From the NCBI GenBank assembly GCA_947631045.1, contig CANRJV010000014.1, positions 1-33,352 of the forward strand: DNA of 33,352 bases, written 5' to 3'. The notes beneath the pieces were generated by a model. The model saw only the letters and a program-made list of their open reading frames with translations, was not told the origin of the DNA and ran no database searches. Origin of the DNA: an uncultured Bacilli bacterium. GTDB lineage: Bacteria; Bacillota_I; Bacilli_A; RF39; UBA660. Shown piece after piece: positions 19,303 through 33,352 of the stretch. A program made the position numbers and the translations under genes. The number at the start of each line of letters is the position of its first letter. Positions within the stretch are counted from its first letter, which is position 1.

Positions 19303-20031
19303 TTATTTACAAGAGATAAATTTTCTCTTTAAATAAATGCCTTTGTTAAAATCATATTTTTGAGAAACATTTTCAATATTATCAAACACTTCATTTAAAC
19401 GATGAGCATCGCTTCCAATAGTAACTTTACTACCACCCATTTGTTGATATAATTTTAATTTTTCATCATTAGGAAAAGAAAATTCATTTATTCTTCTGGA
19501 TGCAGATGAATTGATTTCTAAAGCCATATCATTAGAAATAATAGTATCAAAAATTTCTTCAATAATTCCTATAGGAAGGATTACTTCATCTATTCTTCTT
19601 CTAATATAATCTAAATGAGCAACCGCATCAATTCCACCATTTTTAACCATTTGCAAAATTCGCTTATAATATAATAAAACTTCTTTTTTGCTATATTCTC
19701 TTGGCAATAAATGATTACTCCCTAATATATAATCCAAATCAAGATTATTTAGGGTTTGGAGTTCATCTATATGTCTTTCAGGATTAGAAACTTCCATACC
19801 TTTAATTAATTTAATATTAGGATATTTTTCTTGTAAAATTTCTAATTCTTCACAATAACATTTATAACGATTTACTACTTGTTTAAGAGTTATTTGATCT
19901 AATTCAATGTGCTCCGTGAAAGCTAAATATTTTAACCCTAATTCTAACCCTCTTTTTATGACAGATTCTATTCTCATCTGTCCATCATATGAATAAATTG
20001 AATGAATGTGCATATCCGCCAAATAAGCCAT
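19303..20031 (-). CDS. PHP-domain histidinol-phosphatase-like phosphoesterase
   Basis: The protein has 242 residues. The PHP metal-site motifs appear in order: DMHIHSIYSYDG near the N-terminus, FTEHIELD (about 38-45), GMEVSN (about 78-83), LGSNHLLP (about 103-110), VAHLDYIRR (about 137-145), LEINSSA (about 171-177) and TIGSDAH (about 205-211). This is the HisK-type histidinol phosphatase family, which removes phosphate from histidinol phosphate or related small phosphates. No his genes are nearby, so the substrate is open. Of two close ATGs, the one at 20031 has AGGAGA at 8 nt; the one at 20037 is too close. The gene is divergent from the LysR regulator. Confidence 0.87.
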   Translation of the reverse strand: MAYLADMHIHSIYSYDGQMRIESVIKRGLELGLKYLAFTEHIELDQITLKQVVNRYKCYCEELEILQEKYPNIKLIKGMEVSNPERHIDELQTLNNLDLDYILGSNHLLPREYSKKEVLLYYKRILQMVKNGGIDAVAHLDYIRRRIDEVILPIGIIEEIFDTIISNDMALEINSSASRRINEFSFPNDEKLKLYQQMGGSKVTIGSDAHRLNEVFDNIENVSQKYDFNKGIYLKRKFISCK

Positions 20032-20126
20032 ATCCATTTCTCCTTTTCTAATTAAAATATATCATATTTATAATCATAAAAAAAATATATATTTATTATA
20101 ATATCTATTACTTTTAGTTATGGATA

Positions 20127-20135
20127 TGGTATAAT
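20127..20135 (+). promoter_or_regulatory. Extended -10 promoter of the LysR gene
   Basis: TGG-TATAAT (20127-20135) is a perfect extended -10 element. The expected transcript start near 20142 excludes the ATG at 20140 and supports the ATG at 20152. Confidence 0.65.
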
Positions 20136-20151
20136 TTAAATGGTGATAAAT

Positions 20152-21027
20152 ATGTTTACAAATCTAAATTTAAACAATTTAAAATATTTTTATGAAATCG
20201 TAAATACAGGAAATATTACCAAAGCTAGCAACAATTTATTTTTATCTCAACCTGCTTTAACTAAAGCTTTGAAGCAACTAGAAAAAGAATTAAATACTCG
20301 TCTTTTAATTAGAAGCAAGAAAGGCATTGTTCCAACTCCAGAGGGAGAAATTCTCTATGAATATGCCAAAAATATTTTTCAAAATTTAGATAAGGTTGTA
20401 AAAACCATTAATCAGCCTAAAGAAGATAACCATATTTATGTCGGAGCTACTACCACTAATTTTTTAGAACCCCTTCTTCCTAGTTTAAAAAAATTCCAAA
20501 ACAAATATCCTGATGTTAAAATACATATAACTTTAGAAGAAATAAATGTGTTAGAAAAATATCGTAATTTGAATAAATTAGATATTTTAATCAAAACAGA
20601 TTATGAACAAATTGATAATTTTAAAAAAATTAAATCTTTTGAAATAAATGATTGTTTTGTCGCTTCCAAAAAGAAATTTCCCGAGCTAGAAAATAAAACA
20701 ATATCAATTAATAAGCTTCTTCAATATCCTTTTGTACTTTTATCAAATGTTACTCATGGGCGAAAAAATTTTAATAACTATTTAAAATCCCAAAATTTAA
20801 AATTAACACCAGCCTATGAATTCAATAGTTACAGTCTATGCCGTGAACTCATAAGAAATGGTTTTGGGATTGGGGTTGGCAACCCTATTCATTATCAAGG
20901 CAAAGAATTTATTGTTCTTAAAACGGATTTTAAATTACCCTTACGAAAATTTGATATATGCTTTAATACTAAATCAAATAATAAATACTTAGAAGATTTG
21001 ACCGAATTTATAAAAAATTATCAATAA
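20152..21027 (+). CDS. LysR-family transcriptional regulator
   Basis: The protein has 291 residues from ATG 20152, with GGTGAT upstream. An ATG at 20140 lies only 5 nt after the -10 box and is unlikely. The N-terminal winged HTH is classical: NLKYFYEIVNTGNITKAS, LFLSQPALTKALKQLEKEL, and RSKKGIVPTPEGEILYEYA, followed by a linker helix. The C-terminal substrate-binding region (about 85-290) has two Rossmann-like lobes, with the strand IYVGATTTNFLEPLLPSL starting the first. It should respond to a small metabolite, and LysR proteins commonly regulate the divergent gene, here the PHP phosphatase; this link is inferred from position only. Confidence 0.92.
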   Translation: MFTNLNLNNLKYFYEIVNTGNITKASNNLFLSQPALTKALKQLEKELNTRLLIRSKKGIVPTPEGEILYEYAKNIFQNLDKVVKTINQPKEDNHIYVGATTTNFLEPLLPSLKKFQNKYPDVKIHITLEEINVLEKYRNLNKLDILIKTDYEQIDNFKKIKSFEINDCFVASKKKFPELENKTISINKLLQYPFVLLSNVTHGRKNFNNYLKSQNLKLTPAYEFNSYSLCRELIRNGFGIGVGNPIHYQGKEFIVLKTDFKLPLRKFDICFNTKSNNKYLEDLTEFIKNYQ

Positions 21028-21152
21028 TAATTTTATAATATTTAAGTTTAATATCTTCTTTCTGGGCTTTTTTTCTATGAACTTTTTAATATTTCGCATA
21101 AATTATAAGCGGGAGAACAATAACTATTTTCCCCAAAAAAGGAGACATATAT

Positions 21153-21638
21153 ATGCATGATAAATTAATAATCATCATTGTCTTTTTTATAACTATTCTA
21201 ACCATGGCAGTGGGCTATTCAACTTTTGCCACTGATTTAAATATAGATGGAAATGCGGAAATTATTGGCGAATGGAATGTCCGCATTGCGGACATCAAAC
21301 CCATAAGTGTTCCTAAGGGATGTGATGCTGGTACTCCTACTTTTTCTGATACAAAACTAGAATTTGAAGCTAAATTAAATAAACCGGGTGATGAAATAAT
21401 TTATGAAGTTACAGTAGAAAATGTTGGCACTATTGATGCCAAATTACAAACCGTCGTCTTTTTAGAAGAACCAGAAGGAACAGAGGCCATTAACTATGAA
21501 ACGACTTCGCTTGCAGAAACCCTCAATGTGGGTGAAAAAACAACTTTTAATATCATTGTTACTTATTTAGATGTTTCCACACCACCAGCTAAAACGACCA
21601 AAACTTTAACGGGCATTATTGAATATGTCCAAAAATAA
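21153..21638 (+). CDS. TasA/camelysin-like secreted protein, likely SipW substrate
   Basis: The protein has 161 residues. The N-terminal hydrophobic segment (about 5-22) is followed by VGYSTFATDLNIDGNA, the conserved opening of TasA/CalY-like SipW substrates; cleavage is likely near FAT or shortly before. The mature part is a beta-sandwich, with KPGDEIIYEVTVENVGTIDA (about 75-95) typical of the family. It ends EYVQK with no wall anchor. It should form or decorate an extracellular matrix or fibre. The start follows AAAAGGAG. The next gene, a SipW-type signal peptidase, overlaps its last codons, so processing enzyme and substrate are made together. Confidence 0.82.
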   Translation: MHDKLIIIIVFFITILTMAVGYSTFATDLNIDGNAEIIGEWNVRIADIKPISVPKGCDAGTPTFSDTKLEFEAKLNKPGDEIIYEVTVENVGTIDAKLQTVVFLEEPEGTEAINYETTSLAETLNVGEKTTFNIIVTYLDVSTPPAKTTKTLTGIIEYVQK

Positions 21639-22710
21639 ATTATTAATAATTTTAATCATTTATTCTTTTACTAATATTTTTTTTACTAGTCATTATTTCA
21701 ATATTTATTTTAATTACTTTCAAATAATCTTTTGGCTTATCTTTTTATTTAATAACTATTATCCTCTAATTCAAAATATTAAAGCCAAAAAAGAAGTAAA
21801 AATCACTTTCATTATTTCCCTAATTTTTATCTTTCTCTACTTTTTAAGTGGTTTTATTTTAGGCTTTAGTAAAAGCCCTTATAATCATTCTTTCATTCAA
21901 ATGTTTAAAAATATTTTAGAAAATATAATTCCTATTTTAGGAATAGAAATTATGCGTTACAAATTAATTAAAAATAATCGGCATAATAAAAAACTAATTA
22001 TCTTTATAACTATTTTAATATTTCTTGCCGAACTAAATATAAAATCAATCTTTGTTTTTAACAAAACTCAACTATTTCATAATTTAGTCTCTATTCTTAT
22101 TCCCCTTTTATTTCGCCATAGCTTATTTACTTATCTTTCTTTAAATACTAACTATTACTTACCTCTAGTATTTAAAATAATTGATCAAACAATTATTTTA
22201 ATATTACCTATAATTCCTTATAATAATTGGTATATTAAAGGTTCTTTAGAAATTATTAAAGTTATGATTATTTATTTTCTTTTTAAATATTTTATTTTTT
22301 CCAAAAGAAAAATAAAGAAGAAAAAAACGATCTTAACTTATATTTTATTTTTAGGAATAGCTATCTTAATTGTTAGTTTTAAAATGGGACTTTTTAAATA
22401 TGAATCCATTGCCATAATTTCTAATAGTATGAGTCCAATATTTACAAGGGGGGATTTAGTAATTTATAAAAAAGATACTAACATTACAAATCAAGATATT
22501 ATCATTTTTGAAAGTGAAAACAAAATAATTGTTCATCGCATCATAAGCCAAAACAACAATTATTATATTACTAAGGGAGACGCTAATAATAGTCCTGACT
22601 CAAGTAAAGTATCAAAAGAAGATATAAAAGGGGTTTATAAATTTCATCTTAAATATTTAGGCTTTCCTGCCATCTGGTTAAAAGAATTTTTAGATAAGGA
22701 GGCAAGTTAA
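21625..22710 (+). CDS. sipW: SipW-like signal peptidase with extra N-terminal membrane domain
   Basis: The protein has 361 residues from ATG 21625; a TTG at 21619 is also possible. The C-terminal ~105 residues are a type I signal peptidase of the SipW/ER class: Ser268 in SNSMSP, GDLVIYKK, His304 in IIVHRIIS instead of the usual Lys, and Gly318-Asp319 in KGDANNSPD. SipW proteins are normally about 190 residues. Here about 230 additional N-terminal residues form several membrane helices (about 6-21, 33-45, 62-80, 126-138, 155-168, 182-198, 211-225), giving an unusual polytopic enzyme. The gene overlaps the TasA-like gene by 14 nt and abuts the DUF5305-like gene, giving a three-gene operon for making a secreted fibre-like protein. 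Confidence 0.87.
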   Translation: MSKNKLLIILIIYSFTNIFFTSHYFNIYFNYFQIIFWLIFLFNNYYPLIQNIKAKKEVKITFIISLIFIFLYFLSGFILGFSKSPYNHSFIQMFKNILENIIPILGIEIMRYKLIKNNRHNKKLIIFITILIFLAELNIKSIFVFNKTQLFHNLVSILIPLLFRHSLFTYLSLNTNYYLPLVFKIIDQTIILILPIIPYNNWYIKGSLEIIKVMIIYFLFKYFIFSKRKIKKKKTILTYILFLGIAILIVSFKMGLFKYESIAIISNSMSPIFTRGDLVIYKKDTNITNQDIIIFESENKIIVHRIISQNNNYYITKGDANNSPDSSKVSKEDIKGVYKFHLKYLGFPAIWLKEFLDKEAS

Positions 22711-23580
22711 ATGAAACAAACTAAAATGCTAACTTTCTTAATTATTATATCTTTTTTAAGTTTTCTTATTTTTCTAACTAAATCTTTAATCAATGATAAA
22801 ATTAATTCATCTTCTTATATCATTAATAATAAAACAAACTATCAAGTTATTTTAAAAGATAATGAGTATTTTCAAGAAGAAACTGATTATTATGTTTCTA
22901 AAGCTATAAAAGAGGTTTTAGTAAATTTTAATTATGAACTTAATAATCAAAATAATAAAAATATTTTATATTCTTACACTATTGATGCTACTTTAAAAGG
23001 ACTAACCGATAATGAAACAAAATTAGTGTGGCTTAAAAAGAAAAATTTAGAAAAAGAAAATAATTTAAAAGATTCAAAAATAAAAATAGAGAAAAACTAC
23101 CCAATCGATTATGATTATTACATTTCTTATGTTAAATCTTTTGAAAACACTTATAATTTAAAAATAGATGCTTTTTTAGAAATTAATTTAGCCATAAAAA
23201 GTAATGATAAAAAAATAGATACTGATGTAAAAGTAACTATTCCCATAAATGACAAAGTAAGTGAAATAACTATTAATGAAGATAAAGAATTTTTAAACGA
23301 TAAAAAAACTAATTATGATAATGTTTTAACATTTATTTTTTTAATTTTATTTATAATTCTTATTATTTTCCGAAATAAACCCCAAAATATTTTAAAAGAA
23401 TATCAAGATTCCATTATTAAATTATCTAAAGAACCAAATCTCAATAATCTCAATTTAATAGTTTTAGATAATTTAAAAGATTTATTCCAAGTTATGGAAG
23501 ATAATAATACTTTAATTTTTAATTACCAAAATAATTATTATTGCTTTATTAATAATACAATTTATTTATATTCATCATAA
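22711..23580 (+). CDS. DUF5305-like membrane protein of the SipW operon
   Basis: The protein has 289 residues. The N-terminal membrane helix spans about 7-25 and a second helix about 205-222. The segment between is extracellular and contains NYQVILKDNEYFQEETDYYV and ILYSYTIDATLKG, the pattern of DUF5305 proteins that sit beside SipW genes in many Firmicutes. The C-terminal ~60 residues are cytoplasmic. It starts directly at the stop of sipW, with AAGGAGGCA inside that gene, so translation is coupled. It may assist the signal peptidase or assembly of the TasA-like product; this is inferred from operon conservation. It converges on the GNAT gene with no gap. Confidence 0.75.
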   Translation: MKQTKMLTFLIIISFLSFLIFLTKSLINDKINSSSYIINNKTNYQVILKDNEYFQEETDYYVSKAIKEVLVNFNYELNNQNNKNILYSYTIDATLKGLTDNETKLVWLKKKNLEKENNLKDSKIKIEKNYPIDYDYYISYVKSFENTYNLKIDAFLEINLAIKSNDKKIDTDVKVTIPINDKVSEITINEDKEFLNDKKTNYDNVLTFIFLILFIILIIFRNKPQNILKEYQDSIIKLSKEPNLNNLNLIVLDNLKDLFQVMEDNNTLIFNYQNNYYCFINNTIYLYSS

Positions 23581-23985
23581 TTATTTTTTCATCCACATAT
23601 ACATTCCCGCATCAATCGTATCTTTTATTTTAAAGCCAAATTTTTCATAAAAAGGACTTTTTCCTTTAGCAGCCAGTAATTGAAACATTACTTCTTCACC
23701 ATCTTCTAAAGTATCTTTCAAACGTTTAATTAAATTTTCAATCATTAAAGTGCCTATTCCTTGATTTTGATATTCTGGTCTTACAACTACATCCGCTAAA
23801 AAAGCAAAATAGCCTTGGTCTGTTATAAGCCTTGCCATTCCAACTGGTTTGTTAGAAATGACATATTTCACTGTAAAACTATTTTCTAGACTTTTTTGAA
23901 GTAACCTCTTTGAGGGACATTTCCAATCAACAGATGCCGCAATAGACATATATTCTTCATAAGTTAAATTATTTTCCTCTAACAA
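23581..23985 (-). CDS. GNAT-family N-acetyltransferase
   Basis: The protein has 134 residues from TTG at 23985, which sits 5 nt after GGTGA like the TTG starts of the AraC-like gene and tspO. A GTG at 23994 overlaps that site and lies very near the predicted transcript start. The GNAT core is clear: strand FLADVVVRPEYQNQGIGTLM, with the acetyl-CoA loop QNQGIG, and the ending PFYEKFGFKIKDT followed by DAGMYMWMKK. This family transfers an acetyl group from acetyl-CoA to an amine. The acceptor is unknown. TATAAT lies just upstream. Confidence 0.88.
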   Translation of the reverse strand: MLEENNLTYEEYMSIAASVDWKCPSKRLLQKSLENSFTVKYVISNKPVGMARLITDQGYFAFLADVVVRPEYQNQGIGTLMIENLIKRLKDTLEDGEEVMFQLLAAKGKSPFYEKFGFKIKDTIDAGMYMWMKK

Positions 23986-24014
23986 TTTAATCACCCATTT
24001 ATATTATAACAAAT

Positions 24015-24914
24015 TTATTTCTTTTTTTCTTCTTTAATAAAAATCGGTTGTCTTAAATTGTTACTCTTGGTTCTTTCAATATATTTTACTTGTACCATTA
24101 TCGTTGGTTTAAGATAGTTAATATTAGGAAATTCTTCTGTAAAAGGAGAATTTTTTAAAGTCTTTAATTTTTGTAATTTGGAATATAAAGGATTTTTCTT
24201 AGCCATATTAACTTTCCCAATTAAATGTAATTCGTTATTTTGATACTCTCCTAAATAAAGAGTGACGACATAATTTTTCGAAATATCTTCATAACCACCT
24301 ACTAAAAAAGATGCTACTTGATAATTTTTAATTTTAATCCAGTTATCACACCTCGTATTAATTAAGTACTCACTATTTTTTCTTTTGGCAATTATTCCCT
24401 CTAAATTAGCCTTTTTGACTTCTTTAAAAAGTTTTATTCCTTCGCCTTCAATATATTTGGTTTTCATAAAAATATCATTATCTGGATATTTACTTAAAAT
24501 GTCTTTCCTCTTTAAAAGAGGTTCTTTTGTTAAGTCTTTTCCTTCGTATAAAATATCAAAACAAATAAAGACTATTGGGCTATTAAGAGAAGCCTCTTTT
24601 ATTTTTAATACATTTTTTAAATGGGCTCTTTCTTGAAGTTTGCCAAAATTAGGTTTACCATTTTCAAAATAAACTATCTCCCCATCAAATATTGTTTCTT
24701 TTTTCACTAATTTTTTTAAAAATTGAAGTTCCGGATAAAGATAAGAAACATCTATTAAATTTCGACTTTGAATGATAACTTTATGGGGACTTGCAAAAAT
24801 TAAGGTTCGATGACCATCAAATTTTATCTCAAAAAGATAATCATTAGAATTAAAAGGCCTCTCTATTTCTTCTAAAAGCATTGGTCCCCATTTTTTATTT
24901 TGCCAAATATTCAT
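24015..24914 (-). CDS. ligD: ATP-dependent DNA ligase of the NHEJ pathway (stand-alone LigD ligase)
   Basis: The protein has 299 residues, only the ligase domain of LigD; the polymerase and phosphoesterase domains are absent. Nucleotidyltransferase motifs are in order: motif I EIKFDGHR with Lys31 as the adenylated residue, DGEIVYFENGKPNF (motif III region), FICFDILYEGK (motif IIIa), LEGIIAKRKNSEYL (motif IV) and NWIKIKNY (motif V). The C-terminal OB-fold, about 200-299, starts near SFLVGGYED. It seals DNA breaks held by Ku. Its start overlaps the ku stop (ATGA), so the two are co-translated. A minimal NHEJ pair of this kind is known in Firmicutes. Confidence 0.92.
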   Translation of the reverse strand: MNIWQNKKWGPMLLEEIERPFNSNDYLFEIKFDGHRTLIFASPHKVIIQSRNLIDVSYLYPELQFLKKLVKKETIFDGEIVYFENGKPNFGKLQERAHLKNVLKIKEASLNSPIVFICFDILYEGKDLTKEPLLKRKDILSKYPDNDIFMKTKYIEGEGIKLFKEVKKANLEGIIAKRKNSEYLINTRCDNWIKIKNYQVASFLVGGYEDISKNYVVTLYLGEYQNNELHLIGKVNMAKKNPLYSKLQKLKTLKNSPFTEEFPNINYLKPTIMVQVKYIERTKSNNLRQPIFIKEEKKK

Positions 24915-25657
24915 TTCTTTTTTAAGCTCTTTTCTAAAGCTTCCATCAAATCATTAATTTGATTTTTATTTCTTTTCTTAACACTTTTAATTTTCTTTCC
25001 ATCTAGTTTATCAGATATAGCTTCTCTAATATTATTCTGATATTCATCTTGATATTTATCCGGTTCAAATTTACCACTTCGCTCTTCAATTAATTTAATC
25101 GCTAATTCTAATTCTTTTTCACTTGAATTACTATTTTTTAAATCATCAGGTAACATTACTTCTTCTTTAAAAAATAAAGTTGTCATAACTATTCCATATG
25201 AAGCAAATCTTAAAATACAATAATAAAATTTACTGCCAATAACCGTTTTGGCTAAAGCCACCTTTTTGGCCTTTTTTAAAGCTTCACAAAAAAGATTATA
25301 GGCTTTACTTGTTTTTTCTGTTTCTAAAACATAACTTCTTTCAAAATAAATAGGATCAATATCTTTAATATCAATAAAAGAAACAATTTCAATTTCTTTT
25401 TCATTTTCTGGTTTTAATTTATTTAACTCTTCTTTCTGAAAAGTTAAATATCGATCTTTTTCATATTCGTAACCTTTAATAATATCTTTTTCTTTAACTT
25501 CACTCTTACAATGATCACAATATTTGATATAATGAATTCTATTTAAGCACTTTTTATGAAGTTGATTAAAAGATGTATCATTATCTTTTATTAAAGGATT
25601 CATTACGACTGGAATATTTACTAAACCAAAAGAAATATTACTATGAATATTAGGCAT
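24911..25657 (-). CDS. ku: Bacterial Ku protein
   Basis: The protein has 248 residues, a normal size for bacterial Ku. The opening SNISFGLVNIPVVMNPLI is the family signature, followed by FNQLHKKCLNRIHYIKYCDHC, a central barrel with DIKDIDPIYFERSYVLE, and the C-terminal Lys-rich tail. It forms a homodimer ring on DNA ends and recruits the ligase. It overlaps the ligase gene by 4 nt. It is divergent from a stress-type SDR gene, with about 100 nt of AT-rich spacer. NHEJ genes often serve in sporulating or stressed cells, but no sporulation gene is seen here. Confidence 0.93.
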   Translation of the reverse strand: MPNIHSNISFGLVNIPVVMNPLIKDNDTSFNQLHKKCLNRIHYIKYCDHCKSEVKEKDIIKGYEYEKDRYLTFQKEELNKLKPENEKEIEIVSFIDIKDIDPIYFERSYVLETEKTSKAYNLFCEALKKAKKVALAKTVIGSKFYYCILRFASYGIVMTTLFFKEEVMLPDDLKNSNSSEKELELAIKLIEERSGKFEPDKYQDEYQNNIREAISDKLDGKKIKSVKKRNKNQINDLMEALEKSLKKK

Positions 25658-25756
25658 AACTTTTTCACCATTTTTAGTATTTCCTTTCTAATTTGTTTTT
25701 ATGTATTTAACACAATAAACAAAATATATACATAAACTAAAAAAGGAGGAAAGATA

Positions 25757-26677
25757 ATGGAATACGATTATCAATTTGGCAATAATTATTACAAATATGG
25801 AAAAGATATCGGTATTAAAAGTACCGTTTATCAAATTTTGGCTCCTGAACAAGAGCAAGATGGCCAACCCGCAATGGAATATGAAATGAACCCTTTGCCC
25901 ATCTTCGATAATCCCGAATACCAAGGAAGTGGTAAGTTAAAAGATAAAGTAGCCATAATCACAGGTGGTGATAGTGGTCTTGGCCGAAGTGCTGCCATAT
26001 TCTTTACTAAAGAAGGCGCTAAAGTAGTCATTCCTTACTTTGATGAAGATAAAGATGCGGAATTTACGAAAAAGTATATTGAAGCTCTTGGAGGAGAATG
26101 TCTTTTAATAAAAGGTGATTTAAGAAATCCAGAATTTTCTAAAGAAATTGTGGAAAAGACTTTAGCCAAATACGGCAAAATCAATATTTTAGTTAATAAT
26201 GCTGGCGTTCAATATCAACAAGATAATTTAGAATGTATCTCTAATGAACAATTAGATAAAACCATGAAAGTTAATGTTTATTCAATGTTTTATTTAACCA
26301 AAGAAGTCTTACCCCATCTTCATAGTAAAGATAGTATTATCAATTTAACTAGTGTAACAACATTCTTTGGTGAACCTCAATTAATCGATTATGTCGCATC
26401 TAAAGGAGCCATTGTTGGTTTTACTAGAAGTCTCGCCCGTAATTTAGCATTAAAAAATATTAGAGTTAATGCCATTGCCCCAGGATTTTTCTGGACCCCT
26501 TTACAACCAGGATGTTGGGTTAAAGAAAAAATACCATCTTTAGGAAGTGATGCCGCGATGGCAAGAGGAGCAATGCCATATGAACTAGGGCCCACTTTTG
26601 TTTTTCTAGCAAGTGATGATTCTAGTTACATGACTGGACAAGTAATGCACGTTAATGGTGGCCAAGTAATGGGTTAA
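25757..26677 (+). CDS. SDR oxidoreductase, general stress / YghA-like subgroup
   Basis: The protein has 306 residues. The ~50-residue N-terminal extension with PLPIFDNPEYQGSGKLKDK is typical of the YghA/YdaD/YhdF-like subgroup of short-chain dehydrogenases. The cofactor motif is TGGDSGLGR (about 68-76), then NNAGVQ, and the catalytic Tyr and Lys are in YVASK. The ending SSYMTGQVMHVNGGQ is standard. It should be an NAD(P)-dependent oxidoreductase acting on a small alcohol or aldehyde. GGAGG lies 7 nt before the start. It is divergent from ku. Confidence 0.92.
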   Translation: MEYDYQFGNNYYKYGKDIGIKSTVYQILAPEQEQDGQPAMEYEMNPLPIFDNPEYQGSGKLKDKVAIITGGDSGLGRSAAIFFTKEGAKVVIPYFDEDKDAEFTKKYIEALGGECLLIKGDLRNPEFSKEIVEKTLAKYGKINILVNNAGVQYQQDNLECISNEQLDKTMKVNVYSMFYLTKEVLPHLHSKDSIINLTSVTTFFGEPQLIDYVASKGAIVGFTRSLARNLALKNIRVNAIAPGFFWTPLQPGCWVKEKIPSLGSDAAMARGAMPYELGPTFVFLASDDSSYMTGQVMHVNGGQVMG

Positions 26678-26680
26678 AAA

Positions 26681-26712
26681 AAATTAAGTTCTTATTTTGA
26701 ACTTAATTTTTT
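26681..26712. terminator. Bidirectional intrinsic terminator
   Basis: AAATTAAGTTC (26681-26691) pairs with GAACTTAATTT (26699-26709), flanked by A and T runs on either side. It serves the SDR gene on the plus strand and the large surface-protein gene on the minus strand, which converge here. Confidence 0.85.
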
Positions 26713-26718
26713 ATTAAT

Positions 26719-28311
26719 TTAAACGTTAGTTATATAATATGGATCTCCAATAATACCGGTTCCTTTTAACTTAATCATAGATGAATCGATATAAAAGACT
26801 GGACGAACCGCATACGTAGTAGTCAAACCGGTGTTGTACGCAGCCCCTTTACCCACATCCCACGCATAGTAATGGACGTCGTTGTAACCATACCTGGTCA
26901 TTGTCCATTCTGCCCCTGCAGAAGGAGCTGCCGATCCGGGTGGTGTATTTTGCTGATCATTTAATCCATTTTGGATAAATAACCAATTGTTTGTGTTTGC
27001 ATCGCTGGCATATAAATAATCACTTAAGTACATTAATCCTATTTTATCCCCATTTGTTATATTGTATCCTCTCTCTTTTTGAAACAATGACGGATTGGTA
27101 TTATCAGTTGAATCTCCGATATACCATTTATCTGGTTTTACAATTAAGTTTGTCCATTGAGTATCTTTCATATAACTATATTCACTACCACTTCCAAAGC
27201 ATTGATTACATGTATAGGTATCACTACTTTTTGGACTTTGGCCATTTAATCCTTTGTATAAATCTGCATCATTCCATTTTGTATCATAATACGTATTATG
27301 CCAACTAAAGGTACTTTGACTACCCTTTTTTACTTTTGTTGCTTTGATTAATTTTAATCTATTATTTGTATCTATTCCTATTATTCGATACATATAGGTA
27401 TCCATATTATTTTTACATTGAGTTTGATCTGTTGTTCCAAAACAGATAAAGTTATCGATTACTTTAGTTTTATCTCCAACAAATCTCCTTAAATCATCTT
27501 CTACATTTCCTCCAGCGGATTTTATTTGAGCATTCCTTGTTTGCATTTCTTCTTCTGACTCAAGACTCTTAGAATTAGCAACTACCACATCTTTAGCAGT
27601 TTTTGATTCTGTTGTAAATTGTTTTTGTGTTGGATTTGCTTTATTATCATTGCCAGCATTATCTATTAAGTAAAAATAGAATGTATATTCTTTTCCTGCA
27701 CTTAAATTGCTAAATGTATGATTGCTAGAATCTGTACATGTATAATCATTTTGACTTGTTCCATAACAATATTGTTTTATTCCATTAGCATCACTTCCGG
27801 TTACACTAACTGTTATTGTTGTCTCAGTTATTTCTGTTGATGTAACATTACTTATTGTTGGTGCTGTTGTATCTAATGTTATACTACTACTTTTAACTTC
27901 TGATATATATCCATACTTATTTTTTATATAAGCATTTACTGTATGGTTTGTTTCACTATTTAACGTTATTTGGTTGGTTACAGTTATACTTTTATTATTT
28001 GGCTCTTGGATGTTTTTAAAATCAGTACATGTACTTTCAGTTGTTACACAATATTCAGTTATATTATCATCAGTCCATTCTATTGTGACACTTGGATTTG
28101 GATTATTGGTGTATTGTTTATTTTCATCTTCAATATATACTTTATCTATTGTGGGTTTTAATTTTCCTATTGTAGCTTCTATTATTGGTAATTCATTACT
28201 ACCACCATAATAAGCATAGGAGTCTTTTAAAGTTAACAATAAAATTAAAAATATTATTATTGATATCAAACTAACAATTATTACTTTTTTATTCTTTAAC
28301 TTTTCTTCCAT
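26719..28311 (-). CDS. Large secreted/anchored surface protein with Ig/FN3-like domains
   Basis: The protein has 530 residues. An N-terminal signal anchor (about 9-28) is followed by YAYYGGSNELPIIEATIGK, which resembles the start of SipW-processed proteins. Two beta-sandwich domains follow: Ig-like (about 50-145) and FN3-like (about 148-235, ending YFYLIDNAGNDN). The C-terminal part (about 285-530) carries a Trp/Tyr-rich domain resembling DUF6273, with YRIIGIDTNNRLKLIKA and, at the end, AVRPVFYIDSSMIKLKG. Cys pairs such as CVTTESTC and CNQC suggest disulfides. No C-terminal wall anchor is seen. It is probably displayed at the surface, and its promoter contains a G9 tract in the spacer. AAGGAG precedes the start. 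The ligand is unknown. Confidence 0.8.
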   Translation of the reverse strand: MEEKLKNKKVIIVSLISIIIFLILLLTLKDSYAYYGGSNELPIIEATIGKLKPTIDKVYIEDENKQYTNNPNPSVTIEWTDDNITEYCVTTESTCTDFKNIQEPNNKSITVTNQITLNSETNHTVNAYIKNKYGYISEVKSSSITLDTTAPTISNVTSTEITETTITVSVTGSDANGIKQYCYGTSQNDYTCTDSSNHTFSNLSAGKEYTFYFYLIDNAGNDNKANPTQKQFTTESKTAKDVVVANSKSLESEEEMQTRNAQIKSAGGNVEDDLRRFVGDKTKVIDNFICFGTTDQTQCKNNMDTYMYRIIGIDTNNRLKLIKATKVKKGSQSTFSWHNTYYDTKWNDADLYKGLNGQSPKSSDTYTCNQCFGSGSEYSYMKDTQWTNLIVKPDKWYIGDSTDNTNPSLFQKERGYNITNGDKIGLMYLSDYLYASDANTNNWLFIQNGLNDQQNTPPGSAAPSAGAEWTMTRYGYNDVHYYAWDVGKGAAYNTGLTTTYAVRPVFYIDSSMIKLKGTGIIGDPYYITNV

Positions 28312-28414
28312 ACCTTTTCTCCTTGTTTATAATACTGAATACCAATATCAAACAAAAAATAATTTATGTTAATAACTACATAAATACTTCTTACTATCTA
28401 CATCTTATATGCTT

Positions 28415-28442
28415 ATTATATAACACCCCCCCCCGGAGTCAA
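28415..28442 (-). promoter_or_regulatory. Promoter with a G9 tract in the -35/-10 spacer (probable phase-variable switch)
   Basis: Minus strand: -35 TTGACT (28442-28437), a 16-nt spacer containing nine G in a row (28434-28426 on the minus strand; C9 on plus), then -10 TATAAT (28420-28415). The predicted leader is about 95 nt to the ATG at 28311. One added G would give the ideal 17-nt spacer. Such a homopolymer is exceptional in this AT-rich window. It lies after the terminator of the upstream SDR gene. Confidence 0.8.
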
Positions 28443-28466
28443 GTTTTTGAAAAAAATTTGTTACAT

Positions 28467-28496
28467 CAAAAAAACATAGGCATTATTACCTATGTT
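28467..28496 (-). terminator. Intrinsic terminator of the FabG-like SDR gene
   Basis: Minus strand: AACATAGG (28496-28489), 8-nt loop, CCTATGTT (28480-28473), then a T run to 28467. It separates the SDR gene from the surface-protein promoter. Confidence 0.85.
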
Positions 28497-28508
28497 TATA
28501 AATAAAAA

Positions 28509-29252
28509 TTAGTTTCTCGCAGCCCCATCGACTTGTAAAATAATACCGGTGATATAACTAGCCATGGGACTAGCTAAGAATAGAAAGGCATTCGCAATAT
28601 CTTTAGGTTCGCCAATTCTTCCTAAAGGAATGGTTTTAATTAAAGGTTCAATCATTTCCTTTGGTAAACTGGCAACCATATCCGTATTAATAATTCCTGG
28701 AGCAACCGCATTTACTCTTATATTAAAGGGTGCTAATTCTCTTGCTAATGATTTCGTTAAACCATTAACAGCAAACTTTGATGCCGGATACCCAACTCCT
28801 GAAGGTTGGCCATAAATACTAACCATGGAACTAGTATTTAAAATAACTCCTTCTTTTTTTTCTTTCATATAAGGCACAACGGCTTTCGTAACATTAAACA
28901 TCGCATTAACATTTAAACTCATAATGCTTTCAAAGTCTTCACTAGTAGTATCTTCAATTTTTTTATTCGCGGAAATTCCCGCATTGTTAATTAAGACATC
29001 TATTTGACCATATTTGGTAATTACTTTTTTAATAACTTCTTCTATTTCTTCATAACTATTTAAATTAGGAAAGTATCCTTCTGCCTTAAGACCTTCTTCA
29101 TTTAAAGTAGCTAAGGATTTATCTACTGACTCTTTTTTTGAACCAAATAAAATAACTTTCGCTTTTTCTTTGGCAAAAGATCTTACTACTTCTAAGCCTA
29201 TTCCCCTTGTTCCCCCAGTAATAACCACAATTTTATTTTCTAAGTTCAACAT
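28509..29252 (-). CDS. FabG-like SDR oxidoreductase
   Basis: The protein has 247 residues, a classical single-domain SDR. Cofactor motif TGGTRGIG (about 13-20), NNAGIS, catalytic Ser in NTSSM, and Tyr-Lys in YPASK; the ending YITGIILQVDGA is standard. This size and motif set fits 3-oxoacyl-ACP reductase-like or other NAD(P)-dependent alcohol dehydrogenases; no fatty-acid genes are adjacent, so I do not call it fabG. The start lies within the end of the GDPD gene, with GGAGGT there, so translation is coupled. A terminator follows. Confidence 0.9.
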   Translation of the reverse strand: MLNLENKIVVITGGTRGIGLEVVRSFAKEKAKVILFGSKKESVDKSLATLNEEGLKAEGYFPNLNSYEEIEEVIKKVITKYGQIDVLINNAGISANKKIEDTTSEDFESIMSLNVNAMFNVTKAVVPYMKEKKEGVILNTSSMVSIYGQPSGVGYPASKFAVNGLTKSLARELAPFNIRVNAVAPGIINTDMVASLPKEMIEPLIKTIPLGRIGEPKDIANAFLFLASPMASYITGIILQVDGAARN

Positions 29253-29980
29253 TTTTTACCTCCAAAAATTTCTTCTTCAAAAATATAATTATCACAATAT
29301 TCCTTTGCATATTTTATATCATTTTTATTTTTTATTGTCCATCCTAAAATAAGATGGTTTTCTCTTAATTGACAAATTTTCGGATGCTTAATTATTTTTA
29401 AATGACAAGAATAAAAATCTGGCTTAGAAAATTTACCATAAAAAATTCTTAAATAAAAGAATAAGGTATAAAAAACATTACGGTTATCTGAAAGTAATTG
29501 CCCTCTTATAACCTCGGGAGCATGTTTTTTAAAATATCTAATTGATTTCGCTCGAAAACTTTTAACCGCCACTAAGCCTGAATAATTTTGTAAAAGAGTT
29601 ATTACTTCTTTTTCCAATTTGCCTACTCTTGCATCATATTTTAATTCAATTATAATAGGTACTTTTCCTTTAACTAAATCTAAGACTTCGCTAAATGCGG
29701 GAATAGTGTCTTCAGTATGCGGAAATTTATAATTTTTTAATTCTTCTAAAGTTAAATTTTTAATTTTTTTATCAATATTAAATAGTCTTTTTAAATTATC
29801 GTCATGGATAACCACTACCTTATTATCCTTAGTCAAATGAACATCTAGTTCAATAAGATAATCATTATCTAAAGCGCTCTTAAAAGATGATAAAGTATTT
29901 TCAAATATTTCTTTATCTTGATTATGTAATCCACGATGGGCGATAGGTCTATTTAATAAATAACTTAAATCTCTTTCCAT
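29246..29980 (-). CDS. Glycerophosphodiester phosphodiesterase family protein
   Basis: The protein has 244 residues from ATG 29980. An earlier TTG at 30016 is the TTG of the -35 box, so it is rejected. GDPD motifs are clear: AHRGLHNQ with the catalytic His, ENTLSSFKSAL, ELDVHLTKD with the metal ligands, and VIHDDNLKRL with the second His. IIELKYD and the late GWTIKNKND complete the TIM barrel. No signal peptide is seen, so it should be cytoplasmic and cut glycerophosphodiesters to glycerol-3-phosphate and an alcohol. It overlaps the FabG-like gene by 7 nt. Its -10 box ends 7 nt before the ATG, so the mRNA may be leaderless. Confidence 0.9.
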   Translation of the reverse strand: MERDLSYLLNRPIAHRGLHNQDKEIFENTLSSFKSALDNDYLIELDVHLTKDNKVVVIHDDNLKRLFNIDKKIKNLTLEELKNYKFPHTEDTIPAFSEVLDLVKGKVPIIIELKYDARVGKLEKEVITLLQNYSGLVAVKSFRAKSIRYFKKHAPEVIRGQLLSDNRNVFYTLFFYLRIFYGKFSKPDFYSCHLKIIKHPKICQLRENHLILGWTIKNKNDIKYAKEYCDNYIFEEEIFGGKKC

Positions 29981-29987
29981 ATAAATT

Positions 29988-30016
29988 ATTATAATACCTT
30001 TTTCCCAATTTGACAA
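29988..30016 (-). promoter_or_regulatory. Sigma-A promoter of the GDPD gene, leaderless arrangement
   Basis: Minus strand: TTGTCA (30016-30011), 17 nt, TATAAT (29993-29988), then AATTTAT and ATG at 29980. Transcription would start about at the start codon, and there is no ribosome site in between. Confidence 0.7.
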
Positions 30017-30126
30017 TTTATGGTATCTTCATTTTTAGCCCTAAATATGGGCATTTTTAAGATAAGGTGAAAAGTATAAAAAAACAAAGAGAGGGAAAAA
30101 ATAGTAGTATGGAAGGAGGATAACAA

Positions 30127-30870
30127 ATGAACAAAAAATTATACTTAGGACTAGCATTATTTTTAATAGCAATAGTTTTAATGCCAATTATGAATGTCCA
30201 TGCCGAAAGTTATACAGTTAAAAATCAAGCAGAATTAAAAAGTGCATTACAAAATAATGATATCGATACCATTATTTTAGGGGAAGATATTGAAACAACG
30301 GAAAAAATCAATATAACAAGAAGTGTAACTATTGATGGCGCTAATCACATGATTAAATATGTAGGAACTTTTGGTGCAGAAGGCGGTAAAGATAATACAG
30401 TTTGGGCAGGAATTTATGTTCTACAATTCTATAAAACTACTGGTACTTTAAAAAATATTAAATTAACTGGTGGTAATGCCGGCCTTCTTATAAATGGTTC
30501 TGATGTAACTTTTGTGGGAACAATTGATGTTTCAGGAAATGGCTTTGGAGGAATTGAACTTGGTCAAGGAGCCAATGTTACTGAAACGAATAAATTAACT
30601 TTAAATGATGCTGATATAGTTAATACTACCGAAAACGACGATCATCCTACTCTATGGGTTCCAAATGATAGTGATGATGCTGTTATGACCGTAGATGGTG
30701 AAACTGAATTAATCCATTCTGGTGATGAATTAACTTTAATAGAAATGAATGAAATTTTTGATTTAGGAACACCAAATACATTAGATAATATTGCCGCTTT
30801 TGAAAGTACTTTTATTATTTCTTTATTAAGTATTTTAGGCGTAGCAGTATTAAATAAAAGATATAATTAA
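30127..30870 (+). CDS. Secreted beta-helix-like protein with sortase-type tail
   Basis: The protein has 247 residues. The signal peptide, about 1-26, ends VHA. The mature part has short repeats with periodic Asn/Gly/Val, such as SVTIDGANHMIKYVGT, TLKNIKLTGGNAGLLINGSD and IDVSGNGFGGIELGQG, the look of a right-handed beta-helix (pectate-lyase-like) domain. The C-terminus has TPNTLDNIAA, a hydrophobic helix (about 225-240) and KRYN. This resembles NPxTxDN-type wall-sorting signals seen in Firmicutes, but the motif is not a canonical LPxTG. No catalytic residues for a lyase are obvious. GGAAGGAGG precedes the start. It is likely a surface adhesin or carbohydrate binder. Confidence 0.78.
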   Translation: MNKKLYLGLALFLIAIVLMPIMNVHAESYTVKNQAELKSALQNNDIDTIILGEDIETTEKINITRSVTIDGANHMIKYVGTFGAEGGKDNTVWAGIYVLQFYKTTGTLKNIKLTGGNAGLLINGSDVTFVGTIDVSGNGFGGIELGQGANVTETNKLTLNDADIVNTTENDDHPTLWVPNDSDDAVMTVDGETELIHSGDELTLIEMNEIFDLGTPNTLDNIAAFESTFIISLLSILGVAVLNKRYN

Positions 30871-30876
30871 TTCTAG

Positions 30877-30914
30877 AAAGAAGACCTAAAAAAAGAAAAA
30901 GAGGTCTTCTTTTT
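30877..30914. terminator. Bidirectional intrinsic terminator
   Basis: AAAGAAGACCT (30877-30887) pairs with AGGTCTTCTTT (30902-30912), followed by Ts on plus. It separates the surface-protein gene and the convergent sigma-like gene. Confidence 0.85.
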
Positions 30915-30926
30915 CTTTGAAATAAA

Positions 30927-31355
30927 CTATCTATGTAAATCAGTACTAGGCTCTACTTCGTCTTCAAATAAAATACCAGAAGTAATTAAACTAGCTCTTT
31001 CTGTTTCATTTAAGTCAATTATGGAACTTAAACTACTTAGCCATTTCTTTTGACCATAACGTTGTAATTCATCAGTCATATAATTTTTAATTGTTATATC
31101 AATTATTGGTCCAAATGAATTATCGGTTACATTTTCTAAATCACATGTATTAATGGCTTCGATTAAGCCTAGATTACCAGCTGATATTAAATCAGTGATA
31201 GGAAGACCTAAACCTAAGAATTCTTTAGCAATCTTTCTTACGCGCCACATATTACAAATAATAAGCATGTCATAAGCACTAGTATCACCAGTAGCCCGGT
31301 AAACTCTTAAGCATTTTAAAGATTCTTCATCACTTATTTTTCTAAATTTTCCCAT
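30927..31355 (-). CDS. Lone sigma-70 region 2-like protein
   Basis: The protein has 142 residues. It matches only region 2.1-2.2 of sigma-70: MLIICNMWRVRKIAKEFLGL and LPITDLISAGNLGLIEAI, the core RNA-polymerase-binding segment. The part where region 2.3-2.4 should melt and read the -10 is weak (DNSFGPIIDITIKNYMTDEL), and there is no region 3 or 4. It could be a divergent sigma factor, a modulator competing for RNA polymerase, or a relic. AAGGGGG lies upstream of the ATG. The acidic tail (FEDEVEPS) is not seen in ordinary sigma factors. It stands alone between two terminator/promoter regions. Confidence 0.75.
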   Translation of the reverse strand: MGKFRKISDEESLKCLRVYRATGDTSAYDMLIICNMWRVRKIAKEFLGLGLPITDLISAGNLGLIEAINTCDLENVTDNSFGPIIDITIKNYMTDELQRYGQKKWLSSLSSIIDLNETERASLITSGILFEDEVEPSTDLHR

Positions 31356-31435
31356 AATTTTAATCCCCCTTTTTGAGTTGCTTATTACTTTAACACATTT
31401 TTTCTTATTTTACAAGCATTTTTTTCTTAAATACG

Positions 31436-31444
31436 TGTTATAAT
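31436..31444 (+). promoter_or_regulatory. Extended -10 promoter of the GH3 gene
   Basis: TGT-TATAAT (31436-31444) is an extended -10 element with no good -35 at 17 nt. AGGTGA and the ATG at 31467 follow at normal distance. Confidence 0.6.
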
Positions 31445-31466
31445 AGAAATACTTAGGTGAAAATAC

Positions 31467-32780
31467 ATGAAAAAAACAATATATAGTTTAATATTAGGAA
31501 TTTTTTTAATAGCCATTATTATTTTGGCTTTAAATAGTCATAAAGCTCAATTTAAAAGTGATAAAATCGTTACTATTTCGGGTGTTATTGTAAATAAAGA
31601 AGATACGAAAACGATTATTAAAGATAGCCAAAATAAAAGATATGCTTTCGAAAATATTAAAGAAGACATTGGAACGAAAGTAGATTTAACTTTTTTAAGT
31701 AATACAGAAGAGGTTCTTAATTATAAAGTTCTTGAAGCATCTTCCATACCTTCTTCTTGGTTAGATAAGGGAATTTTTAAAGAATTTTATTATGATGCTT
31801 ATCAAAAATTACAAGAAATGTCTTTAAGTGAAAAAATTAGCCAAGTTTTACTTGTTCATTATCAAAATAAAAACAATGTTGAACTTCAAGAGAAATACCA
31901 ATTCGGTGGATTTATCTTCTTTGAAAAAGATTTTAAAGATAAAACTAAAGAAGAAGTTCTAAATATGATTACGGAATTACAAACAGCTTCCAAAATTCCC
32001 GTTTTAACGGCGGTAGATGAAGAGGGTGGCACTGTAACTAGAATTAGTCATAATAAAAACTTAGTTGAATCTCCCTTTAAATCTCCTCAAGAATTATATC
32101 AAGAAGGGGGACTAGAAAAAATTCAAGAAGATGTTAAGTATAAATCCCAAATTTTAAAAGAATTAGGTTTAAATTTAAATTTAGCTCCGGTTGTTGATGT
32201 TTCTACTGATAAGAATGATTATATTTACAAAAGAACTTTAGGCCTTCCAACGGAAGAAGTATCTAAATATGCGGAAGCCGTTATTGAAACTAGTAAAAAC
32301 ACAGGCGTTTCATACACTTTGAAACATTTTTCGGGATATGGCAATAATGCTGATACTCATAAAGGAGCTAGTGAAGACTATAAAAGTTATGAAGACATAG
32401 TTAAATATGATTTACCACCTTTTGAAGCAGGCATAAAAGTAGGAGCCGAAGCCATAATGAATAGTCATAACATTGTTATGAGTATCGATTCCGAAAATCC
32501 CGCTTCTCTATCCAAAAAAGTTCATGATATTTTACGACAAGATTTAGAATTTACTGGTATTATTATTACAGATGATTTAAATATGGGAGCGTTAAAAAAT
32601 ATTCCTAATAAAGAGGTTAAAGCCTTACTGGCAGGAAATGACTTATTAATTACTTCTAACTATGAAGAAAGTTATAATAATATTTTAAATGGCATTAATA
32701 ATAATTTAATTAGTGAAGAGGAATTAAATCATTCTGTTTTTAGACTATTGGCTTGGAAATATTATAAAAAATTAATCTAG
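31467..32780 (+). CDS. Glycoside hydrolase family 3, NagZ-like, membrane-anchored
   Basis: The protein has 437 residues. An N-terminal signal anchor (about 4-22) has no lipobox Cys, then a short beta-rich linker domain (about 28-90). The GH3 barrel follows, about 105-430: GGFIFFEKDF, AVDEEGGTVTRI, NLAPVVDVST, KHFSGYGNNADTHKG (the NagZ-type His/Asp loop), EAIMNSHNIV, and ITDDLNMGAL with the nucleophile Asp. It most likely removes N-acetylglucosamine from cell-wall fragments outside the membrane. There is no second GH3 C-terminal domain, which fits the NagZ subtype. AGGTGA precedes the ATG. tspO follows after about 40 nt. Confidence 0.9.
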   Translation: MKKTIYSLILGIFLIAIIILALNSHKAQFKSDKIVTISGVIVNKEDTKTIIKDSQNKRYAFENIKEDIGTKVDLTFLSNTEEVLNYKVLEASSIPSSWLDKGIFKEFYYDAYQKLQEMSLSEKISQVLLVHYQNKNNVELQEKYQFGGFIFFEKDFKDKTKEEVLNMITELQTASKIPVLTAVDEEGGTVTRISHNKNLVESPFKSPQELYQEGGLEKIQEDVKYKSQILKELGLNLNLAPVVDVSTDKNDYIYKRTLGLPTEEVSKYAEAVIETSKNTGVSYTLKHFSGYGNNADTHKGASEDYKSYEDIVKYDLPPFEAGIKVGAEAIMNSHNIVMSIDSENPASLSKKVHDILRQDLEFTGIIITDDLNMGALKNIPNKEVKALLAGNDLLITSNYEESYNNILNGINNNLISEEELNHSVFRLLAWKYYKKLI

Positions 32781-32823
32781 CATATTTTTATCATCTGAAA
32801 ATAATATATATTAGGTGATATAT

Positions 32824-33285
32824 TTGCAAAAAGAATTTTTTCGAAATATTTTTTATTTATTCTTTCCCCTTTTATTAGGGTCAATCGTTGGCTTAATTAT
32901 TTCTTCTTCCCTAGATTATGGACCATTACTTAAACCACCTTTATCACCACCGGGGTATATCTTCCCTATTGCTTGGAGTATCTTATATCTTCTAATGGGA
33001 ATATCTTACTTTCTTTTTAAAAAAAGTAATAATCCCGATGATGACGAAAGTATTATTTATTACAGTCAATTAGTAGTTAACCTTCTTTGGAGTATATTCT
33101 TCTTTGTTCTAAAATGGCGTTTATTTACTATTTTATGGACTATTCTCCTTTTGGGATTAGTAATTTATTTACTTTATTTATTCTATCAAAAGTATAAGCC
33201 ATCTTTTTATTTAAATATTCCTTATCTTTTATGGCTCATTTATGCAACTTATTTAACTATTGGTGTTTATTTTTTAAACAATTGA
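32824..33285 (+). CDS. tspO: TspO/MBR family membrane protein
   Basis: The protein has 153 residues from TTG 32824, which sits 5 nt after AGGTGA. A GTG at 32815 is part of that site and is rejected. Five membrane helices are predicted. The family motif LKPPLSPPGYIFPIAWSILY (helix 1-2 junction) is clear, with Trp in the second helix; WSIFFFVLKWR and the ending LWLIYATYLTIGVYFLNN complete the fold. TspO proteins bind porphyrins or sterol-like ligands and affect tetrapyrrole or stress physiology. The stop codon TGA (33283-33285) lies at the boundary with the group II intron, so the original C-terminus may have been changed. Confidence 0.9.
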   Translation: MQKEFFRNIFYLFFPLLLGSIVGLIISSSLDYGPLLKPPLSPPGYIFPIAWSILYLLMGISYFLFKKSNNPDDDESIIYYSQLVVNLLWSIFFFVLKWRLFTILWTILLLGLVIYLLYLFYQKYKPSFYLNIPYLLWLIYATYLTIGVYFLNN

Positions 33286-33352
33286 GTAGAGAGAAATAAT
33301 TAAATTATTTCGTCCCTCTCACACCACCGTACATACGGTTCTCGTATACGGC
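33286..33352 (-). mobile_element. 3' end of a group II intron (domains V-VI, partial)
   Basis: On the minus strand, positions 33352-33326 fold as domain V: GCCGTA pairs with TACGGT, TACG with CGTA, with a two-base TG bulge and an AGAAC loop. Domain VI follows with GAAATAATT pairing with AATTATTTC (about 33310-33292). The intron ends within about 33281-33286. The orientation is the same as that of the 5' intron fragment at the left edge. The exact 3' splice site cannot be fixed from this window. Confidence 0.8.

Follow-up and report, generated by a model that had tools for sequence, protein, structure and literature searches.

The 33,352-nucleotide (nt) stretch of DNA analyzed here (contig CANRJV010000014.1 of GenBank assembly GCA_947631045.1, from an uncultured Bacilli bacterium of the RF39 lineage; termed the window herein) carries a run of nine G residues (G9) between the −35 and −10 hexamers of a predicted promoter, which is located upstream of a gene for a surface-type protein of 530 amino acids (aa). 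We put the probability at roughly 0.85 that this tract is a contingency (phase-variation) element belonging to a genome-wide set of such promoters, and that the protein under its control is also varied by a diversity-generating retroelement (DGR). The comparisons reported below describe a predicted contingency system that involves promoter spacers at multiple loci in uncultured gut Bacilli and is partly layered on DGR-diversified surface proteins. The original prediction, a switch for one surface gene, is supported by these data; it understated a system that extends across the genome and the family, and it did not include the DGR that targets the same gene.

A family of poly-G promoters

Read on the minus strand from 28442 to 28415, the promoter has the sequence TTGACT-CC-GGGGGGGGG-TGTTA-TATAAT, in which GGGGGGGGG is the G9 tract, exactly as first described, and it is predicted to be a near-consensus promoter of the sigma-70 type. 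The spacer is 16 nt long, and the end of the −10 hexamer lies 103 nt from the ATG at 28311. The features of the locus are as follows (class A is defined further below).

28437..28442, minus strand: −35 hexamer TTGACT (promoter scan; common to the four class A promoters compared)
28426..28434, minus strand: G9 tract, proposed slippage site fixing the spacer length (near-identical copies in relatives have G7 to G10)
28415..28420, minus strand: −10 hexamer TATAAT, 16 nt from the −35 hexamer (promoter scan, shuffle test)
28312..28414, minus strand: class A leader, near-identical upstream of paralogues on contigs C1, C26, C30, and C67
28324-28319, minus strand: AAGGAG ribosome-binding site within the leader (by eye)
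26719..28311, minus strand: gene for the 530-aa surface-type protein, a DGR variable protein (open reading frame [ORF], profile, and fold models)
26770..26895, minus strand: DGR variable repeat (VR) at the 3′ end of this gene, 77% identical to the template repeat (TR) at C21:6460-6639
28472..28497, minus strand: terminator-like hairpin 3′ of the upstream SDR gene (window scan)
28509..29252, minus strand: upstream SDR (FabG-like) gene (profile match)

The hexamers alone are weak evidence, because the promoter scan found no more sites than expected: 68 promoter-like sites in 20000-33352, compared with a mean of 85.9 in shuffled sequences. The G9 promoter is one of the two top sites among the 68 (11/12 matches), and the full promoter pattern, with up to three mismatches allowed, occurs once in the window and in none of 100 dinucleotide shuffles. 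The window has a GC content of 24 to 29%, and its C/G runs comprise one of nine, one of six, and four of five residues, confirming the earlier observation that such homopolymers are otherwise absent from it. Runs of G9 or longer are expected 0.007 times per window under an order-1 Markov model, and on this figure and the shuffle test a chance origin of the G9 promoter was rejected. The terminator-like hairpin between the SDR gene and the G9 promoter fits with the surface gene having its own promoter, so far as can be predicted, and the homopolymer is positioned between the −35 and −10 elements of this promoter, as in loci of the porA/opc type.

The genome (1.31 Mb in 81 contigs, with the window being contig C14) contains 26 tracts of G7 or longer and 21 of G8 or longer, compared with 9.1 and 1.6, respectively, expected under an order-1 model with the composition of the window. 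In 13 cases, a G7 to G9 tract lies inside a TTGAC..TATAAT spacer, and these promoters fall into two classes. The five class A sites, TTGACTCC-Gn-TGTTATATAAT, are on C1 (G8), C14 (G9; the window), C26 (G9), C30 (G7), and C39 (G9). The eight class B sites, TTGACAAATTGAATAC-Gn-TATAAT or one base different, all have G8 or G9; seven form a single array on C6, and one is on C41. The spacers of the two classes have little in common except the tract. A further poly-G site, on C23, has TATACT as its −10 hexamer. A hybrid site on C67 (locus L050, position ∼1778), with no −35 hexamer seen, joins a coding start like that of the paralogue on C19 exactly at G8 to the −10 half of a class A promoter, a junction explained by recombination at the tract or by a mis-join. 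In the C19 paralogue itself (L042, 5117-5155), G9 follows the tenth codon, and no promoter tract is in view; as assembled, the frame of the start codon hits a stop just past G9, and the remainder is open in another frame. This tract is predicted to be the translational counterpart of the promoter switch. The remaining 11 of the 26 tracts lie in coding frames or other settings.

Two further settings of G tracts were noted in this genome. On C73 (L052, position 1536), G8 lies within a coding sequence resembling a nudix box (by eye), and the frame changes at the tract. A GC-rich repeat, ATAAATAGGGGGCCCCGC-G7/G8-AGGGAGGAAG (one copy with AAAAATA for ATAAATA), is present twice on C13 and once each on C49, C64, and C69 (L041, L048, L049, L051); it is not a −35/−10 spacer, and three of its copies are near contig ends. 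Where the contig holds a gene, the repeat precedes one that is TasA/CalY-like (by eye).

To compare tract lengths among relatives, we used a class A pattern with a minimum of GGG, which listed 150 sites; 6 of the 15 positive genomes, including the genome under study, are outside this list. Every listed site contains at least G7, and the run is uninterrupted in 149 of the 150. Near-identical promoter copies (allowing one- or two-base differences before the run and one after it) differ mainly in tract length: among the sites listed, there are 12 G8, 13 G9, and 1 G7 in the sister species G009, 17 G8 and 2 G9 in G011, 14 G8, 11 G9, and 1 G7 in G014, and 29 G8, 3 G9, 1 G7, and 1 G10 among the 34 copies in G022. 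Thus, as in porA/opc-type loci, the tract varies while its flanks stay constant, here among paralogous promoters within genomes. In class A, tract length is negatively correlated with the length of the non-G part of the spacer (rho = −0.36, P = 0.0017, 74 flank types). Class A spacers cluster at 15 to 16 nt, with a peak at 16 nt (91/175 copies), and class B spacers at 18 to 19 nt, with a peak at 19 nt (19/43 copies). The usual spacer optimum of sigma-70 promoters is 17 nt; we infer that the two classes would lie on opposite sides of it, and a gained G would therefore raise expression from class A promoters and a lost G that from class B promoters.

The poly-G promoter pattern was found in at least 27 of the 38 genomes of the genus, which is a lower bound, since this pattern, with two bases before the run, requires G9 in most class A promoters. 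It was also present in 50/291 genomes of the family and in 29/395 genomes of the class (8 from the same family and 21 from other families, 10 of these in one family). A reversed-pattern control gave no match in any genome of the genus, family, class, and tract-length searches, and the poly-C version of the pattern was absent from all 38 genus genomes; a generic homopolymer accident was rejected on these grounds. Recurrence in front of many surface-type genes, the length differences among copies, the spacer offset of class A, the lack of poly-C, and the coding-start tract on C19 all support the phase-variation switch originally proposed, and phase variation behind the poly-G tracts appears well supported. 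In G023 (G9) and G033 (G7), a poly-G promoter likewise follows the homologous SDR gene, at the position corresponding to that in the window, and its cargo is unlike that of the window.

A check for a phage-borne device found three stretches in viral_contigs that match the pattern. In a wider search, from which the best 80 of at least 119 stretches were taken, other lineages were included. Loci from Faecalibacterium metagenome-assembled genomes (MAGs; L094, L101, L105, L117, L126, L184, and similar ones) have promoters of the form TTGACACC-G8/G10-TATGC or TATGT-TATAAT, and a lipoprotein-like gene starts 80 nt further on in the three with a readable ORF (L117, L126, and L184). The device therefore seems to occur outside the Bacilli.

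The surface protein, the DGR, and the genes behind the tracts

The 530-aa protein has an N-terminal hydrophobic helix and, counting itself, 51 matches in the genome. It had been described as a large, secreted, Ig/FN3-like protein, which holds for its size, for the hydrophobic helix, and for a beta-rich, Ig/FN3-like region at residues ∼50 to 235; the fn3 match (E = 6e-4) is below the Pfam cutoff, and a lectin-like C-terminal half was overlooked. Since the full-length fold model is confident only for residues ∼50 to 235, the C-terminal half was modeled alone, and it gave a C-type-lectin-like fold; a Foldseek search returned no match at E ≤ 0.001. The VR lies within this predicted lectin-type domain, as in DGR targets.

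The differences between VR and TR are found mostly at template adenines, which is likewise characteristic of DGR targets. In the window VR, 15/43 template A positions are changed, compared with 10/83 non-A positions; for the 13 VRs of the genome pooled (duplicate loci dropped, each repeat scored against its best template), the counts are 218/487 and 87/923, respectively. The genome has four TRs (∼175 bp), all on contig C21, which also carries the one reverse transcriptase (RT) found in the genome search:

C21:7923-9065: RT (RVT_1, E = 2e-17; phrog_1423)

The best match of this RT among solved structures is 8ub7 ("Reverse transcriptase"), which we take to be a phage DGR RT; its best NCBIfam match is a group II intron model, below the cutoff. 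The RT carries the motif GNMTSQ, presumably a mark of DGR enzymes. Adjoining it is an Avd-like ORF that matches phrog_3206 ("Avd protein of DGR") with E = 3e-16, as well as NF033474 (E = 1e-9) and bAvd (E = 2e-6), both below the curated cutoffs. The genome therefore holds a DGR-type RT with an accessory Avd, as required for a DGR target. An ORF of 129 aa with a match to MutS domain I (E = 8e-6) directly precedes the Avd-like and RT genes on C21 (L255, 7201-7590); in G009, a comparable small ORF lies ahead of Avd (L316, 4764-5150; by a look at the sequence only). MutS-like accessory proteins may occur in other DGRs; a literature search for them gave no match among the papers listed.

Of the six class A or hybrid sites of the genome, three (C14, C30, and C67) directly precede a gene that contains a template-like repeat. 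Two (C26 and C39) extend past the ends of their contigs. The one on C1 is followed by a gene without such a repeat and then by a VRPVFYL-tailed ORF without a template match. In G009, in which TR, Avd-like ORF, and RT are located together, 13 of the 22 complete ORFs behind poly-G promoters gave template alignments that exceed the shuffled maximum; this set of 22 covers 24 of the 26 sites (25 rows, one site occurring twice), excludes three rows without a complete ORF, and retains two ORFs that are short and end early. In the best nine of the aligning ORFs, 168/331 template A positions are changed, compared with 82/675 non-A positions. Strong RT homologues (E below 1e-60) are present in 16/38 genomes of the genus.

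The genes behind the tracts are predicted to encode mostly secreted or membrane proteins: a hydrophobic N terminus was found for 141/173 first ORFs behind tracts, compared with 182/586 control ORFs (Fisher P = 8e-33), where the 173 are what remains of 211 distinct promoters in the fetched loci after exclusion of 38 without a usable downstream ORF, the loci include other lineages, and some control ORFs may not be genes. By eye, the cargo types among the rows listed include long VRPVFYL-tailed proteins, LPxTG-like tails, and TasA/CalY-like starts. The idea that poly-G tracts occur only at DGR targets was rejected, since class B and other genes (LPxTG-like and TasA/CalY-like) also have them.

Palindrome-like sequences within or next to the promoter are found in four paralogues without a G tract (L257, L260, L261, and L263), which adjoin apparent divergent genes for XRE-type regulators (by eye). 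Such promoters may represent another way of controlling this surface family. Elsewhere in the window (24015-25657), a Ku domain protein adjoins an ATP-dependent DNA ligase; together, they give this 1.3-Mb genome an end-joining set of two genes.

Proposed mechanism and alternative explanations

In the mechanism that we propose, replication slippage would add or remove G residues in the tract, the changed distance between the −35 and −10 hexamers would alter the contact with RNA polymerase, and transcription of the surface gene would move between low and high states. The DGR would rewrite the lectin-like tip of the protein, the tract would set whether that version is displayed, and the population would show a mixed display of family members, possibly serving immune or phage evasion or a change of ligand. 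That the two layers work together in this way, with poly-G tracts stochastically choosing the displayed members and most members off optimal spacing, we hold to be only somewhat more probable than its converse. If it is true, DGR variants could build up unseen in silent members, which would serve as a reservoir until they are switched on.

Several results weigh against these readings. All tract lengths were read from assemblies. The rank correlation of tract and remaining spacer length is not significant in class B (rho = −0.30, P = 0.06, 39 flank types). Eleven of the 38 genus genomes, including 8 of the 16 of best quality, are without the pattern. MutL is present in 33/38 genus genomes, so loss of mismatch repair is not supported as the cause of slippage, and the slippage that is usual at long runs would have to be enough. 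Comparing tract lengths in related genomes, the check proposed with the original prediction, gave G7 to G10 among near-identical promoter copies; among the closest species examined, there was no strict orthologue with a changed tract, the cargo being different in G023 and G033. After its SDR gene, the close relative G016 has another gene with a different, tract-free promoter region; with G023 and G033, this suggests that promoter modules and cargo are also exchanged. As for the DGR, 9 of the 22 complete poly-G-driven ORFs of G009 did not align to the template above shuffles, strong RT homologues are present in 13/27 pattern-positive and 3/11 pattern-negative genus genomes, so that the link to a DGR is not general, and several of these homologues carry stops. 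With an RT in only part of the pattern-positive genomes, a DGR is not needed for the promoter system.

The tract might instead be a fixed structural or protein-binding spacer in a constitutive or factor-regulated promoter, in which changes of length are incidental and have little effect. Its conservation as G7 to G10 in a single strand orientation is what a binding site could produce, and regulated promoters seem to exist in this surface family, given the tract-free paralogues with palindrome-like promoters beside apparent XRE-type genes (a divergent XRE-like ORF is also present on C21). A fixed site does not readily account for class A and class B spacers that are alike in little except the tract, for lengths that vary among otherwise near-identical copies, or for the tract in the coding start on C19, which would act on the reading frame, and we consider this explanation improbable. 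We give slightly less credence still to the view that the tract is a passive junction of recombining 5′ regions, with promoters and leaders swapped among paralogues, and that the length differences are assembly noise in repeats. The hybrid site on C67, joined exactly at the G run, the many sites near contig ends, and the different cargo after the SDR gene in related species would all fit such a junction, which leaves unexplained why the tracts sit in the −35/−10 spacers of unrelated leaders, with modal spacers of 16 or 19 nt, and why poly-C is absent; moreover, among the sites listed, many G8 and G9 copies are well inside contigs. The contingency element thus remains our preferred reading of the tract.

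Comparison with known systems

Work by van der Ende in 1995 reportedly dealt, to judge by its title, with the spacing between the −10 and −35 elements of porA. A published account lists porA (12G) and opc (11C) of Neisseria meningitidis as transcriptionally switched between high, intermediate, and low states (PMC4235727). The promoters described here resemble these in having a homopolymer between the −35 and −10 elements of a surface-protein gene. They differ in that one genome can carry near-identical promoter modules at many loci (34 in G022, among the sites listed), in that they belong to uncultured gut Bacilli, and in that their cargo includes DGR variable proteins. The vlp genes of mycoplasmas have promoter homopolymers of poly-A and encode surface proteins that are switched combinatorially, as is predicted for the family described here; in the latter, the tract is poly-G, several unrelated protein families are behind one device, and a DGR is present.

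A classic DGR of the BPP-1 type consists of RT, Avd, TR, and VR. The present one is similar in its RT, Avd-like ORF, template repeats, adenine-directed VR changes, and predicted C-type-lectin-like target. It differs in that its template repeats number four, its VRs (at least 13) are spread over contigs, a MutS domain I ORF lies beside the Avd-like ORF, and several targets are behind poly-G promoters. DGRs with multiple targets are already known (PMC6642488). The main text of a DGR survey (PMC8144416) contains neither "phase variation" nor "promoter." A literature search with most subscription journals and preprints outside its coverage found, among the papers listed, no report linking DGR targets to homopolymer switching and, within the same coverage, nothing comparable on phase variation in RF39 or in gut bacteria, metagenomes, or MAGs.

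In this lineage of uncultured gut Bacilli, a genome may have up to dozens of poly-G promoters, and two localized generators of diversity, DGR mutagenesis and poly-G switching, would act on one gene. Tract length is the main difference among near-identical promoters, and metatranscriptomes could therefore reveal the rule relating spacing to expression. The class of mechanism is already known from porA and opc; the new aspects are that a lineage of uncultured gut Bacilli uses it in many copies and that it is coupled to DGR targets.
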